Shown: positions 2,957-9,004 of the stretch, in pieces
Layout of the letters: each line of letters starts with the position of its first letter
Numbering within the stretch: the first letter of the stretch is position 1
DNA from: a virus
Virus record (IMG/VR): IMGVR_UViG_3300025892_000082
Coordinates: 1-32,023 of that record
Reading direction: 5' to 3' (one strand)
DNA: 32,023 nt
Position numbers and translations under genes: made by a program
The notes under the pieces: generated by a model
Database searches by the model: none
What the model was told of the DNA's origin: nothing
The model's input: the letters and a program-made list of their open reading frames with translations, nothing else

Positions 2957-3499
2957 TTGAGTAATTTTAGATTTATAGAAAAGAACTTAGATGTAAGTAA
3001 AATATTACAACAGGTTCTTGACAACTCAGGCGACTGGAAGTATGTTAATAATTTAAAATCAGACGGCAAAGATGTTGGCGGTGACCTAGACCCATATGGA
3101 TTTTTACCTTTAGTTATGGCAGTTGTAAAGCCAGGAGAAAGTCCAAAGAATACAGAAAAAACTCAAAAGACCGAGCTCTATGATAAATATGATGAAGTTT
3201 CTAAATGGTTAAGAAGTCAAGGAATAACACAATTATCAAGAGCTGCATTTTTTAAGTTGGGTATTGATGAGTGGGTTGGTAAACATATAGATGAAGGAAC
3301 TTATTATTTGAGTAGGGATAGATATCATCTTTCTCTACAAGGCAGTTATGATTATGAAGTTGATGGTGAATGGCATACTATCGAGCCAGGCACTTTCTTC
3401 TGGTTTGATAATAAAAAATACCATCAGGCACATAATGTAGGTGATGTCGAAAGAATAACTTTTGTATTTGATGTACCCAAATCAGAAGACAATCCATAG
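2957..3499 (+). CDS. Aspartyl/asparaginyl beta-hydroxylase-like oxygenase
   Basis: A 180-residue protein with the cupin core of the Asp/Asn beta-hydroxylase family, 2-oxoglutarate/Fe(II) oxygenases that hydroxylate side chains of proteins. The signature part is residues 107-172. His110 in KHIDEG and RYHL (122-125) come first, then WFDNKKYH (149-156) and HNVGDVER (159-166). This matches the family order His...Arg-x-His-Leu...FDD-x3-His...ER; His110 and His156 are the likely iron ligands. It starts with TTG behind TAGGA, 20 bases after tRNA-Asn; no ATG fits. T4-like marine phages often carry a homologue. The substrate is unknown: a phage or host protein. Confidence 0.75.
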   Translation: MSNFRFIEKNLDVSKILQQVLDNSGDWKYVNNLKSDGKDVGGDLDPYGFLPLVMAVVKPGESPKNTEKTQKTELYDKYDEVSKWLRSQGITQLSRAAFFKLGIDEWVGKHIDEGTYYLSRDRYHLSLQGSYDYEVDGEWHTIEPGTFFWFDNKKYHQAHNVGDVERITFVFDVPKSEDNP

Positions 3500-3511
3500 T
3501 AAGGACACAAG

Positions 3512-3793
3512 ATGTATAAACCTCTACCAGAAGAAGTAACAATAAAAAAATCAGATATACATGGACTTGGTCTTTGGTGTGTAAAACCGATCAAAGAAGG
3601 AACAGAGATCGGAATTTCACATTTTTATTGGGGAGAAGAATTGCAAAGAACTCCATTGGGTGCTTTTTATAATCACTCTGATGAGCCGAATATAGTAAAG
3701 ATTAGAGAAGATAGTAGGTTCTTTATTGTTGCCACTAGAGATATTTGGCCAGGCGAAGAACTTACATGTCAATATACTTTTTATCAGTTGTAA
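3512..3793 (+). CDS. SET-domain protein (putative lysine methyltransferase)
   Basis: At 93 residues this is a minimal SET domain. Visible motifs in order are HGLGL (17-21), the N-terminal SET turn that binds S-adenosylmethionine; GAFYNHSDEPN (50-60), matching the NHS-x-x-PN knot; and GEELTCQY (81-88), with the likely catalytic Tyr88. SET enzymes transfer a methyl group from SAM to protein lysines; very small single-domain versions exist in viruses such as chlorella virus vSET. The N-terminal part between the motifs is short, so this is close to the minimum fold. It lies 12 bases after the hydroxylase-like gene, so the pair may form a protein-modifying operon. The target is unknown. Confidence 0.8.
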   Translation: MYKPLPEEVTIKKSDIHGLGLWCVKPIKEGTEIGISHFYWGEELQRTPLGAFYNHSDEPNIVKIREDSRFFIVATRDIWPGEELTCQYTFYQL

Positions 3794-5322: not shown

Positions 5323-5594
5323 TGGGTGGAAAATCAACAGGAAAGAATTATACATCTAAGGGTGAACGCCGAAGTGTATCACTGCAGAATAGAACTAAAA
5401 GATTAAAGGGTACTCTTGAACATGCAATTCGTCAGAGAGATGCCTGGCAAAAAGGAAAGAATGTAGTTCTTACAATTCCAAATCCAAATACTTCAGAAAC
5501 CAATAAACCTTTTATAAAGGTTAAGGCGAGTGAGGTATGGGGTGATTTTAGAAAGCAAAGAAAATTTATGATGAGAGGAGAACCAGCAGCATGA
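5322..5594 (+). CDS. Basic hypothetical protein (90 aa)
   Basis: A 90-residue, strongly basic protein (MGGKSTGKNYTSKGERRSVSLQNRTKRLKG...), probably nucleic-acid or structural-complex binding by charge, with C-terminal VWGDFRKQRKFMMRGEPAA. It is coupled by TAATG to the gene before and by ATGA to the peroxiredoxin gene after. I recall similar unannotated proteins in T4-like marine phages but can name no function. Confidence 0.65.
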   Translation: MGGKSTGKNYTSKGERRSVSLQNRTKRLKGTLEHAIRQRDAWQKGKNVVLTIPNPNTSETNKPFIKVKASEVWGDFRKQRKFMMRGEPAA

Positions 5595-6178
5595 TAGAAG
5601 GATTTACGCCACCTTGTGTGGTATTCAGAACTAGGGTCAGAGATGAATCAATCGAAGGCCCAAACCCATATCGTTGGGAAGATGTAACAAGTGATGAATT
5701 GTTTAAAGGCAAGAGAGTAGTTTTATTCAGTTTGCCTGGCGCATTTACACCTACCTGTTCTACATATCAATTGCCTGGTTTTGAAAGTAATTATTTAAAG
5801 ATTAAAGAATATGGTATTGACGAAGTGTACTGTATTTCGGTTAACGATGCATTTGTTATGAATGCATGGGCCAAAGCACAGGACATTCAACATGTAAAAG
5901 TTATTCCAGATGGTTCTGGAAACTTTACTCGATTTATGGGAATGTTAATTGGTAAAAACCATTTAGGCTTTGGTATGCGTAGTTGGAGATATATGTGTGT
6001 TATTAATGACGGCAAGATTGAACACTGGCGGCAAGAGGCAGGTATTAATAACGATGGAAGTGACGATGACCCATATGTTGAAACAACTCCAGAAAATATG
6101 GTGAGTTATCTAGACCAATATAATATGTGGAATGAAGTTAAACAACGAACCGCTATGGGCGATTATAAGGTTATTTGA
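5591..6178 (+). CDS. Peroxiredoxin (Prx5/AhpC-TSA type)
   Basis: A 195-residue thiol peroxidase that reduces H2O2 and organic peroxides. The catalytic motif PGAFTPTC (residues 49-56) holds the peroxidatic Cys56 and Thr53. A conserved Arg follows at about 136 in GFGMRSWRY. The segment KRVVLFSLPGAFTPTCSTYQ and the later YCISVNDAFVMNAWAK match the Prx5 subgroup. Length and motif order are complete. The gene lies in a tightly coupled operon (ATGA with the gene before, TGATG with the Mom-like gene after). A phage copy may protect replication from oxidative stress in sunlit water; that role is inference. Confidence 0.9.
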   Translation: MIEGFTPPCVVFRTRVRDESIEGPNPYRWEDVTSDELFKGKRVVLFSLPGAFTPTCSTYQLPGFESNYLKIKEYGIDEVYCISVNDAFVMNAWAKAQDIQHVKVIPDGSGNFTRFMGMLIGKNHLGFGMRSWRYMCVINDGKIEHWRQEAGINNDGSDDDPYVETTPENMVSYLDQYNMWNEVKQRTAMGDYKVI

Positions 6179-6975
6179 TGTACGACATAAGGCCCCTTCA
6201 TAAAAATAACGCTTCTGTATTTGTTGCAGAACGTCATTATTCTGCAGTTATGCCTCGACTAACTAAACATTATCTAGGGTTTCACTTAGATAATAAGTTA
6301 GTTGGGGTCTTAACTTTAGGGTGGGGAACTAATCCTATGGGAACAATTAAAAAAATGTTTCCAGATTTGACAACTTCTGATTACTTTGAGATTGGAAAGA
6401 TGTGTATGGATGATTCTATGCCAAGAAATTCTGAATCCCAAATGTTATCTCAAACAGTAAAGTGGATGCGTGAAAATACAGATGTAAAATATCTCTATAC
6501 TTGGGCAGACGGAATAGTTGGAAAGCCGGGATATGTTTACCAATCTGCAAACTTTCTTTATGGTGGTTTTATATGGTCTGATGTATATGTCTCTGAGACA
6601 GGCGAGAAGGTGCATTTTAGGACTATACAGAGGAAGATGAAGAAAGAGATGGGTAGAGATGATACGAAGTATGGCCCTCGACCAAATGACGCTAAAATGG
6701 GTGAAATGGGGTTTTCAAGAGTTTGGGGTAAACAGTTCAGATATATTTATCCACTGACTAAAAAAGATAGAAAGTATATGAATAAATATTCTACTTGTTG
6801 TTGGACAAATAAATATCCAAAGGATGAAAACTTGCAGTGGAAAATCAAACGGCCAGGCGAAACAGATTATGAGTGGTGCGATGATATGCCATTCACTCAT
6901 AGTAATGATATAAAACACAATAAGAGTAATATTGCAAGATATAAGGCAGATATTACGATTGACAATTTTTTTTAA
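6178..6975 (+). CDS. Mom-like DNA-modification protein (GNAT fold)
   Basis: A 265-residue protein resembling phage Mu Mom and relatives, GNAT-fold enzymes that modify adenine in phage DNA to block restriction. Features in order: RHYSAVMPRLTKHYLGF near residue 20; NKLVGVLTLGWGTNP, the central strands; FEIGKMCMDDSMPRNSESQ and a helix; then YLYTWADGIVGKPGYVYQSANF, matching the Mom pattern of an Ala-Asp followed by Gly-x-x-Tyr-Gln-Ala/Ser-x-Asn. The C-terminal 100 residues are unique and basic. ATG 6178 overlaps the peroxiredoxin stop; a TTG at 6175 is an alternative. A general GNAT acetyltransferase is the other possibility. Confidence 0.6.
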   Translation: MYDIRPLHKNNASVFVAERHYSAVMPRLTKHYLGFHLDNKLVGVLTLGWGTNPMGTIKKMFPDLTTSDYFEIGKMCMDDSMPRNSESQMLSQTVKWMRENTDVKYLYTWADGIVGKPGYVYQSANFLYGGFIWSDVYVSETGEKVHFRTIQRKMKKEMGRDDTKYGPRPNDAKMGEMGFSRVWGKQFRYIYPLTKKDRKYMNKYSTCCWTNKYPKDENLQWKIKRPGETDYEWCDDMPFTHSNDIKHNKSNIARYKADITIDNFF

Positions 6976-8127: not shown

Positions 8128-8321
8128 ATTTAAAATGGGGGTATTTTTTAAGTATCCCCATGACTTCTTACTTTATCCTTCTATTCCTCTTAGGTTTATT
8201 TGGAAAAAGTTTAATGATATTTACACCAGAAAAAAATATAGTAATGTATGAGTTTTTTGGTGTTGTATTAATACATTATATTTTTTATATTATTTTTTGC
8301 TTGACAAAAAGAAAAGAATAG
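8124..8321 (+). CDS. Putative holin (two-helix membrane protein)
   Basis: A 65-residue protein with two hydrophobic segments, about residues 7-28 (FLSIPMTSYFILLFLLGLFG) and 40-58 (FFGVVLIHYIFYIIFCL), and a basic C terminus (TKRKE). The start overlaps the endolysin stop (ATGA), so translation is coupled. Two membrane segments, small size, positive tail and position next to an endolysin fit a class II holin, but no sequence motif defines holins. The last 21 bases carry the -35 box of the tmRNA promoter. Confidence 0.65.
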   Translation: MNLKWGYFLSIPMTSYFILLFLLGLFGKSLMIFTPEKNIVMYEFFGVVLIHYIFYIIFCLTKRKE

Positions 8322-8331
8322 TGTATAAATA
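8301..8331 (+). promoter_or_regulatory. Overlapping sigma70 and T4-type late promoter for tmRNA
   Basis: TTGACA at 8301-8306 and TATAAA at 8324-8329 with a 17-base spacer make a strong sigma70 promoter. The same -10 region reads TATAAATA (8324-8331), the exact T4 late-promoter octamer used by the gp55/gp33 system. Transcription would start near 8336, at the beginning of the tmRNA acceptor piece. Confidence 0.8.
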
Positions 8332-8399
8332 CAATTGTAATTGTTGATACGATTCAACATACATACTGGACTCGGGGGCAGTACCCGACAGCTCCACCA

Positions 8400-8463
8400 A
8401 AAACATACTAGTGTCCAGTTAAGTTTGGAACACATCTGATAAAGTGGCTAGTATGTTTTTGAT
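8400..8463 (+). other. Intervening segment removed from pre-tmRNA
   Basis: Between the CCA end (8399) and the 5' GGGG (8464). AAAAACATACTAG (8399-8411) pairs perfectly over 13 bases with CTAGTATGTTTTT (8448-8460), stacking on the acceptor stem. It is expected to be cut out by RNase P at the 5' GGGG and by exonucleases at the CCA, giving the two-piece RNA. Confidence 0.85.
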
Positions 8464-8548
8464 GGGGCTGAACTAGGATCGACAGGTGTGTAGAGATGAG
8501 AGTAGATTACCGTGTTGACCTACGATATTCGGTCAAACAAAACTAAAC

Positions 8549-8590
8549 GCAAACGATAACTTTGCACCTGAGTTTGCTCTAGCAGCATAA
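8549..8590 (+). other. tmRNA tag-peptide reading frame
   Basis: GCA AAC GAT AAC begins a 13-codon frame giving ANDNFAPEFALAA and stopping at TAA 8588-8590. The ANDN start and ALAA end are typical of alphaproteobacterial tags, where the C-terminal hydrophobic residues are recognised by ClpXP. Confidence 0.92.
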
Positions 8591-8656
8591 TCAGCGGGGT
8601 ATGGGCTCCACCTTGTTACCAAACGGGCCCGCAGTCATAGTAAAAGGATTTAATAA

Positions 8657-9004
8657 ATGACAAGGTTTTTATTTGGAGCCGCTTCGGCGGTTTTTTTATG
8701 TACATCTGCAATGGCAGAGGGAATTAGAGGCTATATAGATGGTGAAGTTGAATATAGTTTGGAAAATGAAAAATTCACATCCGAATTAGGATACACAACG
8801 GCGCTTCCACAAGGATTGGTTTTGCGTCCATGGGCAGATTTTTCATATGATCGTAACGTAGCATCAGATACAATTAATTTTGATGGTGTTAATTTGGGAA
8901 TTTCATATGCAGTATCTCCTGCACTTTCTCTTTACAGTAATATTAGTGCAGATCACGATTTTGAATACGAAGATACATCAGTAGGCGTTCGTTTTGCATT
9001 CTGA
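8657..9004 (+). CDS. Small secreted outer-membrane beta-barrel-like protein
   Basis: A 115-residue precursor with a clear signal peptide (MTRFLFGAASAVFLCTSAMA, cleavage predicted after Ala-Met-Ala at 18-20). The mature part of about 95 residues is all-beta, with alternating hydrophobic positions (GYIDGEVEYSLENEKFTSELGYTT split into strands) and ends in Phe (VGVRFAF), the usual C-terminal signature for outer-membrane assembly. It is too short for a porin but could be a small barrel. AAGGA lies nine bases before the ATG. Its signal-peptide codons double as the tmRNA terminator hairpin. Possible roles are surface exclusion or envelope change during lysis; neither is proved. Confidence 0.7.
   Translation: MTRFLFGAASAVFLCTSAMAEGIRGYIDGEVEYSLENEKFTSELGYTTALPQGLVLRPWADFSYDRNVASDTINFDGVNLGISYAVSPALSLYSNISADHDFEYEDTSVGVRFAF
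8677..8697 (+). terminator. Rho-independent terminator of the tmRNA, inside a CDS
   Basis: AGCCGC (8677-8682), TTCG tetraloop, GCGGTT (8687-8692), then a run of seven T (8691-8697). The stable UUCG-capped stem lies 37 bases after the tmRNA 3' region and within codons 7-14 of the next gene. Confidence 0.8.

Follow-up and report, generated by a model that had tools for sequence, protein, structure and literature searches.

What does a SET-domain protein of only 93 residues, with a fold known chiefly from chromatin biology, do in the genome of a marine tailed phage? The question is raised by a gene on the plus strand of a 32,023-nucleotide stretch of viral DNA (IMG/VR record IMGVR_UViG_3300025892_000082), hereafter the window, which a sequence-only reading had described as a minimal SET methyltransferase whose place next to a hydroxylase-like gene suggested chemical modification of host or virion proteins. 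We examined the gene itself, its predicted structure, its relatives in viruses and bacteria, and the genes that surround them.

A compact SET-domain gene and its predicted fold

The open reading frame starts with ATG and comprises 93 codons, encoding the protein MYKPLPEEVTIKKSDIHGLGLWCVKPIKEGTEIGISHFYWGEELQRTPLGAFYNHSDEPNIVKIREDSRFFIVATRDIWPGEELTCQYTFYQL. It is preceded by a ribosome-binding site that is found in identical form in a closely related locus (L006) despite a different upstream gene. The features considered below are the following, the conservation percentages being those of an alignment of 53 viral and cellular family members.

2957–3499, plus strand: hydroxylase-like gene directly upstream of SET (Pfam Asp_Arg_Hydrox, E = 1e-9, plus cupin)
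3501–3505, plus strand: ribosome-binding site AAGGA, 6 nt 5' of the SET ATG (sequence reading)
3512–3793, plus strand: stand-alone SET-domain gene, 93 aa, stop included (open reading frame, Pfam SET, AlphaFold2, Foldseek match to vSET 3kma)
3512–3529, plus strand: family signature MYKPLP, residues 1–6, outside the general SET motifs; Y2 and L5 invariant, P6 at least 90%
3560–3574, plus strand: SET motif I, HGLGL, residues 17–21, with the predicted SAM-binding loop G18-x-G20; G18 at least 90%, G20 invariant; aligned by profile to vSET
3611–3622, plus strand: family-specific G34-x-x-H37, found where other SET proteins usually have the SET-I insert; G34 invariant, H37 at least 90%
3647–3661, plus strand: family-specific RTPLG, residues 46–50, immediately before motif III; R46 and G50 invariant, T47 and L49 at least 90%
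3671–3691, plus strand: SET motif III, NHSDEPN, residues 54–60, predicted SAM binding; N54, H55 and N60 invariant; profile-aligned to NHSKDPN of vSET
3752–3775, plus strand: SET motif IV, GEELTCQY, residues 81–88, with the predicted catalytic Tyr Y88; E83 and Y88 invariant; Y88 aligns with chain position 105 of vSET
3782–3784, plus strand: Tyr 91, an aromatic residue at least 90% conserved in the flexible C-terminal end (pLDDT below 50 for residues 91–93), a possible active-site lid

The Pfam SET profile (PF00856) matches the protein with 46.1 bits against a cut-off of 22.4 (E = 7.4e-12), and the profile of PHROG 28741 aligns over its full length, residues 1–92 corresponding to positions 2–97 of 100 (E = 9.6e-21). 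A phmmer search of the PDB with the single sequence retrieved many SET domains, headed by MLL1 (1.4e-5), and the NCBIfam profiles gave sub-threshold matches only. An AlphaFold2 model computed with the 53-row family alignment, made up of sequences from the window and from retrieved loci, has a mean pLDDT of 92.7 and a pTM of 0.82, residues 91–93 being the sole segment below 50, and it contains a short helix at residues 48–52 in the RTPLG region. The best match of this model in the PDB, as found by Foldseek, is vSET of virus PBCV-1 (E = 1.6e-6; TM 0.77 by query length and 0.69), followed by MLL-type SET domains; among predicted viral structures the top matches already bear the name SET domain-containing, several of them from uncultured tailed phages. 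The family profile likewise aligns to vSET over its full length (E = 6e-9), and vSET becomes the top match, at 2e-9, when the profile is weighted towards cellular members. This alignment spans motif I through the Tyr at position 105 of vSET, which we take to be the catalytic residue of that enzyme.

In a narrower alignment of 38 viral sequences, Y2, L5, P6, S14, G18, G20, G34, H37, R46, T47, L49, G50, F52, N54, H55, N60, I78, E83, Y88 and Y91 are invariant; across the 53 viral and cellular members Y2, L5, S14, G20, G34, R46, G50, F52, N54, H55, N60, E83 and Y88 are. Because they are invariant in both alignments (G18, in the wider one, at 90% or above), the predicted SAM-binding and catalytic positions are seen to be kept, and the compact family is defined, beyond the general SET motifs, by additional invariant positions in the MYxPLP start, GxxH and RTPLGxF. 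Differences between the gene and its relatives are mostly synonymous: at 77–94% identity dN/dS is about 0.06–0.2 where dS was measurable (synonymous sites unsaturated), with a value of 0.47 for one very close pair. A chance open reading frame is ruled out by this selection together with the conservation, the fold and the Pfam SET match.

The profile match, the predicted beta fold, the GxG and NHxxxPN motifs and the catalytic Tyr place the protein in the SET-domain superfamily of class V SAM methyltransferases. The minimal SET methyltransferase proposed from the sequence is upheld, at the level of fold and motifs, by the Pfam match, the model, its resemblance to vSET and the intact motifs, and the structure prediction and family search that had been recommended as a check gave a confident model with vSET as its closest fold in the PDB. 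All three signatures named in that proposal do lie within the 93 residues, with the correction that the last reads GEEL-x-x-x-Y and not GEEL-x-x-Y.

Genomic settings in phages and bacteria

The window derives from a T4-like tailed phage, in agreement with the earlier description, as its gp6 matches baseplate wedge proteins of HTVC008M and of Methylophilales phage Melnitz. The SET gene lies about 22 kb from gp6, inside a tRNA array that runs Arg, Gly, Pro, Cys, Asn, hydroxylase-like gene, SET, two small open reading frames and tRNA-Thr. Elsewhere in the window, all on the plus strand, are a permuted two-piece tmRNA of alphaproteobacterial type at 8284–8681 with the tag ANDNFAPEFALAA (ARAGORN; Rfam RF04321, 129 bits, and RF01849, 121 bits), a tag that recurs, identical or almost so, in most relatives whose DNA reaches far enough; a gene for a Mom-like DNA-modification protein at 6175–6975 (Pfam Mom, E = 9e-49; PHROG 1384), which suggests that the phage DNA is modified; and a peroxiredoxin/redoxin gene at 5591–6178 (Pfam Redoxin, E = 5e-24; PHROG 2281).

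The hydroxylase-like gene and SET are on one strand with 12 nt between them. Within the closest clade of 15 sequences, window included, whose SET proteins are 85–100% identical, the hydroxylase-like gene stands between tRNA-Asn and SET in eight (the window, L001–L003, L008, L009, L013 and L014) and is missing from the other seven (L004–L007 and L010–L012), where tRNA-Asn adjoins SET. It is found nowhere in G001, a 129-kb record whose SET is 92% identical; it is present in G002 and absent from the shorter G003–G005, with the qualification that these records may be incomplete. Of 84 dereplicated viral groups, two have the genes side by side, and the named phages that carry the hydroxylase (Synechococcus and Limnohabitans phages) have no detectable SET copy, so that the two sets of named carriers are disjoint. 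The hydroxylase-like gene is an insertion at the tRNA-Asn/SET junction that is polymorphic among relatives.

Searches by tblastn of annotated phages returned eight records with a SET relative, from Pelagibacter phage Kolga, Prochlorococcus phages P-SSM7 and P-RSM6, Pseudoalteromonas phage PH1 and the single-cell virus AG-345-P14, with two records each for P-SSM7, P-RSM6 and PH1; in the four named isolates the gene is annotated merely as "hypothetical protein". In PH1 (L056, BOX07_gp49) the SET-like domain is one part of a protein of 276 aa encoded among the virion/ejection genes; it sits on a very long branch of the tree. In IMG/VR the protein query recovered 52 loci and an alignment query at least 590 stretches that were confirmed, and GTDB genomes yielded 207 bacterial stretches encoding relatives. 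The compact family is therefore widespread and conserved, mostly without a functional label, and common to hundreds of ocean viruses and SAR11 bacteria. Viral copies occupy many different genomic positions, with the upstream neighbour on the strand of SET in 76 of 81 cases. Among 150 flanking genes scanned, the commonest, each found in few members, encode DNA polymerase, primase/helicase, nucleotide kinases, thymidylate synthase, ribonucleotide reductase and endonucleases; gp25/gp6 genes adjoin SET in two cases, P-RSM6 and AG-345-P14, where SET is directly upstream of gp25.

In SAR11 the gene was detected in 21 of the 118 family members searched, the proteins being mostly 122–152 aa long, and it sits within taurine and glycine-betaine catabolic operons. 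One setting is a tauABC/tpa/ald taurine cluster, in which SET follows tpa and ald and precedes PhyH, a DMGDH-like oxidoreductase or both; in the other, SET lies among genes for a Rieske oxygenase, homocysteine S-methyltransferase, DMGDH-like protein, methyltransferase, M24/creatinase and APS-kinase-like protein (Pfam gave the names of PhyH and of the second group of genes, sequence reading those of tau, tpa and ald). The glycine-betaine-type operon of L073 and similar loci also holds genes resembling an Fe/2OG halogenase (HalD, E = 7e-12), APS kinase and a cytidylyltransferase, and in another SAR11 contig (L063) the domain lies in one open frame of 928 aa, either a gene fusion or an assembly artefact. 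A related branch occurs in 14 of 300 genomes sampled from the family Flavobacteriaceae. In two Bacteroidota genomes (L086 and L091) SET is apparently inside an arginine operon, argG-argC-SET-proC-argD-argF-argB-argE as named by sequence reading. We rejected this arrangement as a general clue, as it is confined to those two genomes and 13 other flavobacterial members form a variant branch (NHHE/NHHD) with no adjoining arg genes. In a tree of 91 members, with few columns and many unresolved forks, the SAR11 and flavobacterial groups stand apart from a large, mainly viral part; this tree of non-eukaryotic members does not show the direction of transfer. Nothing in the analysis supports a eukaryotic origin of the gene.

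Possible functions of the phage protein

The function that we favour, at somewhat better than even chances, is that of a compact methyltransferase of marine phages and bacteria, predicted to be competent, that acts most likely on a lysine of a host protein in an accessory capacity and not in virion assembly. SAM would be held in a pocket formed by the G18-x-G20 loop and N54-H55, while the nucleophile, most likely the amine of a host-protein lysine, would come in from the opposite face and be placed for methyl transfer by Y88. With neither a SET-I helix insert nor a post-SET zinc region, the substrate cleft would probably be completed by YxPLP, by G34-H37 and R46-T47-x-L-G, and by Tyr 91. What the analysis shows is the predicted fold, the motifs, their conservation, the selection, the distribution and the genomic settings; we infer enzyme activity, specificity for lysine, a host target and a time of action. 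In favour of this reading, characterised compact SET enzymes such as vSET (by the name of its PDB entry) and Go1-SET (PMC3980110) are protein-lysine methyltransferases.

The SET fold supports a methyltransferase and does not specify its substrate, as is clear from BurB of Burkholderia thailandensis, a stand-alone SET protein of 172 aa that methylates free methionine to S-methylmethionine (PMC12542666). The main rival to a protein lysine, given this precedent and the SAR11 operons, is therefore a metabolic target: the phage gene might be an auxiliary metabolic gene whose product methylates an amine, an amino acid or a sulfur/sulfonate osmolyte in the manner of BurB, which we regard as a real possibility, though a distinctly less probable one. 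The very short SET-I region, which may leave no usual peptide cleft, would suit a small substrate, and the two osmolyte operons of SAR11 and the arginine-biosynthesis operon of the two Bacteroidota genomes are in line with it. Yet no match named BurB appeared when the PDB was searched with the sequence of the SET protein and the family profiles, BurB is a considerably longer protein, osmolyte genes are not near the phage copies, and the enzymes of these operons could equally be the substrate. A bolder version, to which we give still less credence, would make the whole MYxPLP family a phage-spread metabolic methyltransferase that acts on a small osmolyte or amine, or on an enzyme that takes part in breaking down osmolytes, in marine bacteria of the SAR11 type, and by which phages redirect the pathway during infection.

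Other accounts are less probable. Methylation of a virion protein such as a baseplate component, one of the targets suggested by the sequence-only reading, would fit the copies directly upstream of gp25 and the PH1 domain, which belongs to a protein of the internal-virion/portal gene region. It is nonetheless weakly disfavoured, and in our estimate improbable, since the contexts apart from those two cases are mainly replication and nucleotide-metabolism genes and the window copy is in a tRNA array far from gp6. The link that the sequence-only reading drew to the Asp/Arg-hydroxylase-like neighbour, if taken as joint modification of a single protein by the two, draws on the close spacing of the genes on one strand and on the persistence of the pair in eight contigs; the patchy adjacency among relatives and the disjoint named carriers make such a functional pair very unlikely, and as a general rule it is rejected by the seven close relatives and the G001 record that do without the hydroxylase. 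Least probable of all is a catalytically dead fold retained for binding: the small size of the protein might suggest it, but even distant members keep the SAM-binding and catalytic residues unchanged or almost so. The preferred reading remains host-directed methylation of a protein lysine, with metabolite methylation as its principal competitor.

Relation to known SET systems

Phage SET domains as such are already known, tailed-phage proteins being so named in UniProt. In the literature searched, which excluded most subscription journals, we found nothing relevant on SET proteins in cyanophages, pelagiphages or viral auxiliary genes, no description of the compact family, its spread or its SAR11 setting, and no SET enzyme of a tailed phage whose target had been demonstrated. 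Members of the family are encoded by hundreds of marine viral contigs and by SAR11, which ranks with the most abundant bacteria of the ocean; if the proteins are active, methylation of proteins or metabolites would join the means that phages use against their hosts, and the taurine and betaine operons of SAR11 offer a testable way in. The view that SET enzymes are mainly eukaryotic, voiced in the first interpretation, is out of date: SET genes occur commonly in bacteria as well as archaea, the archaeal Go1-SET being a compact protein-lysine methyltransferase (PMC3980110), and BurB acts on a free amino acid (PMC12542666).

PHROG 28741, a phage family with no functional name, appears from the sequence match to be an existing database entry of the compact family. 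The SET proteins of uncultured Caudovirales in UniProt/BFVD (among them A0A218ML49, A0A6J5PTS6 and A0A6J5L8Y2) have the same fold, by which they were likened to ours, but are longer or multidomain (128–971 aa) and 24–31% identical. With BurB the phage protein shares the organisation of a stand-alone SET-domain enzyme, at little more than half the length. The SET domains of MLL/KMT2, histone H3 methyltransferases according to their PDB names, align well in motifs III and IV (E down to 5e-11), although they are larger and carry more inserted sequence between motifs I and III. The closest counterpart is vSET (PBCV-1 A612L; PDB 1n3j/3kma), a histone H3-Lys27 methyltransferase of 119 aa that is likewise a stand-alone viral SET protein and whose alignment to the phage protein takes in almost the whole length and every motif. 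The phage protein differs in lacking most of what lies between motifs I and III, in its own MYxPLP and RTPLG signatures and in its limited identity to vSET (24% in the fold alignment). Where a vSET-like histone methyltransferase would have a eukaryotic host and histone H3, we find a T4-like tailed phage, a tmRNA of alphaproteobacterial type and a bacterial host without histones. With 93 residues against the 119 of vSET, the phage protein, if active, would be a useful model of the minimal needs of the SET fold.
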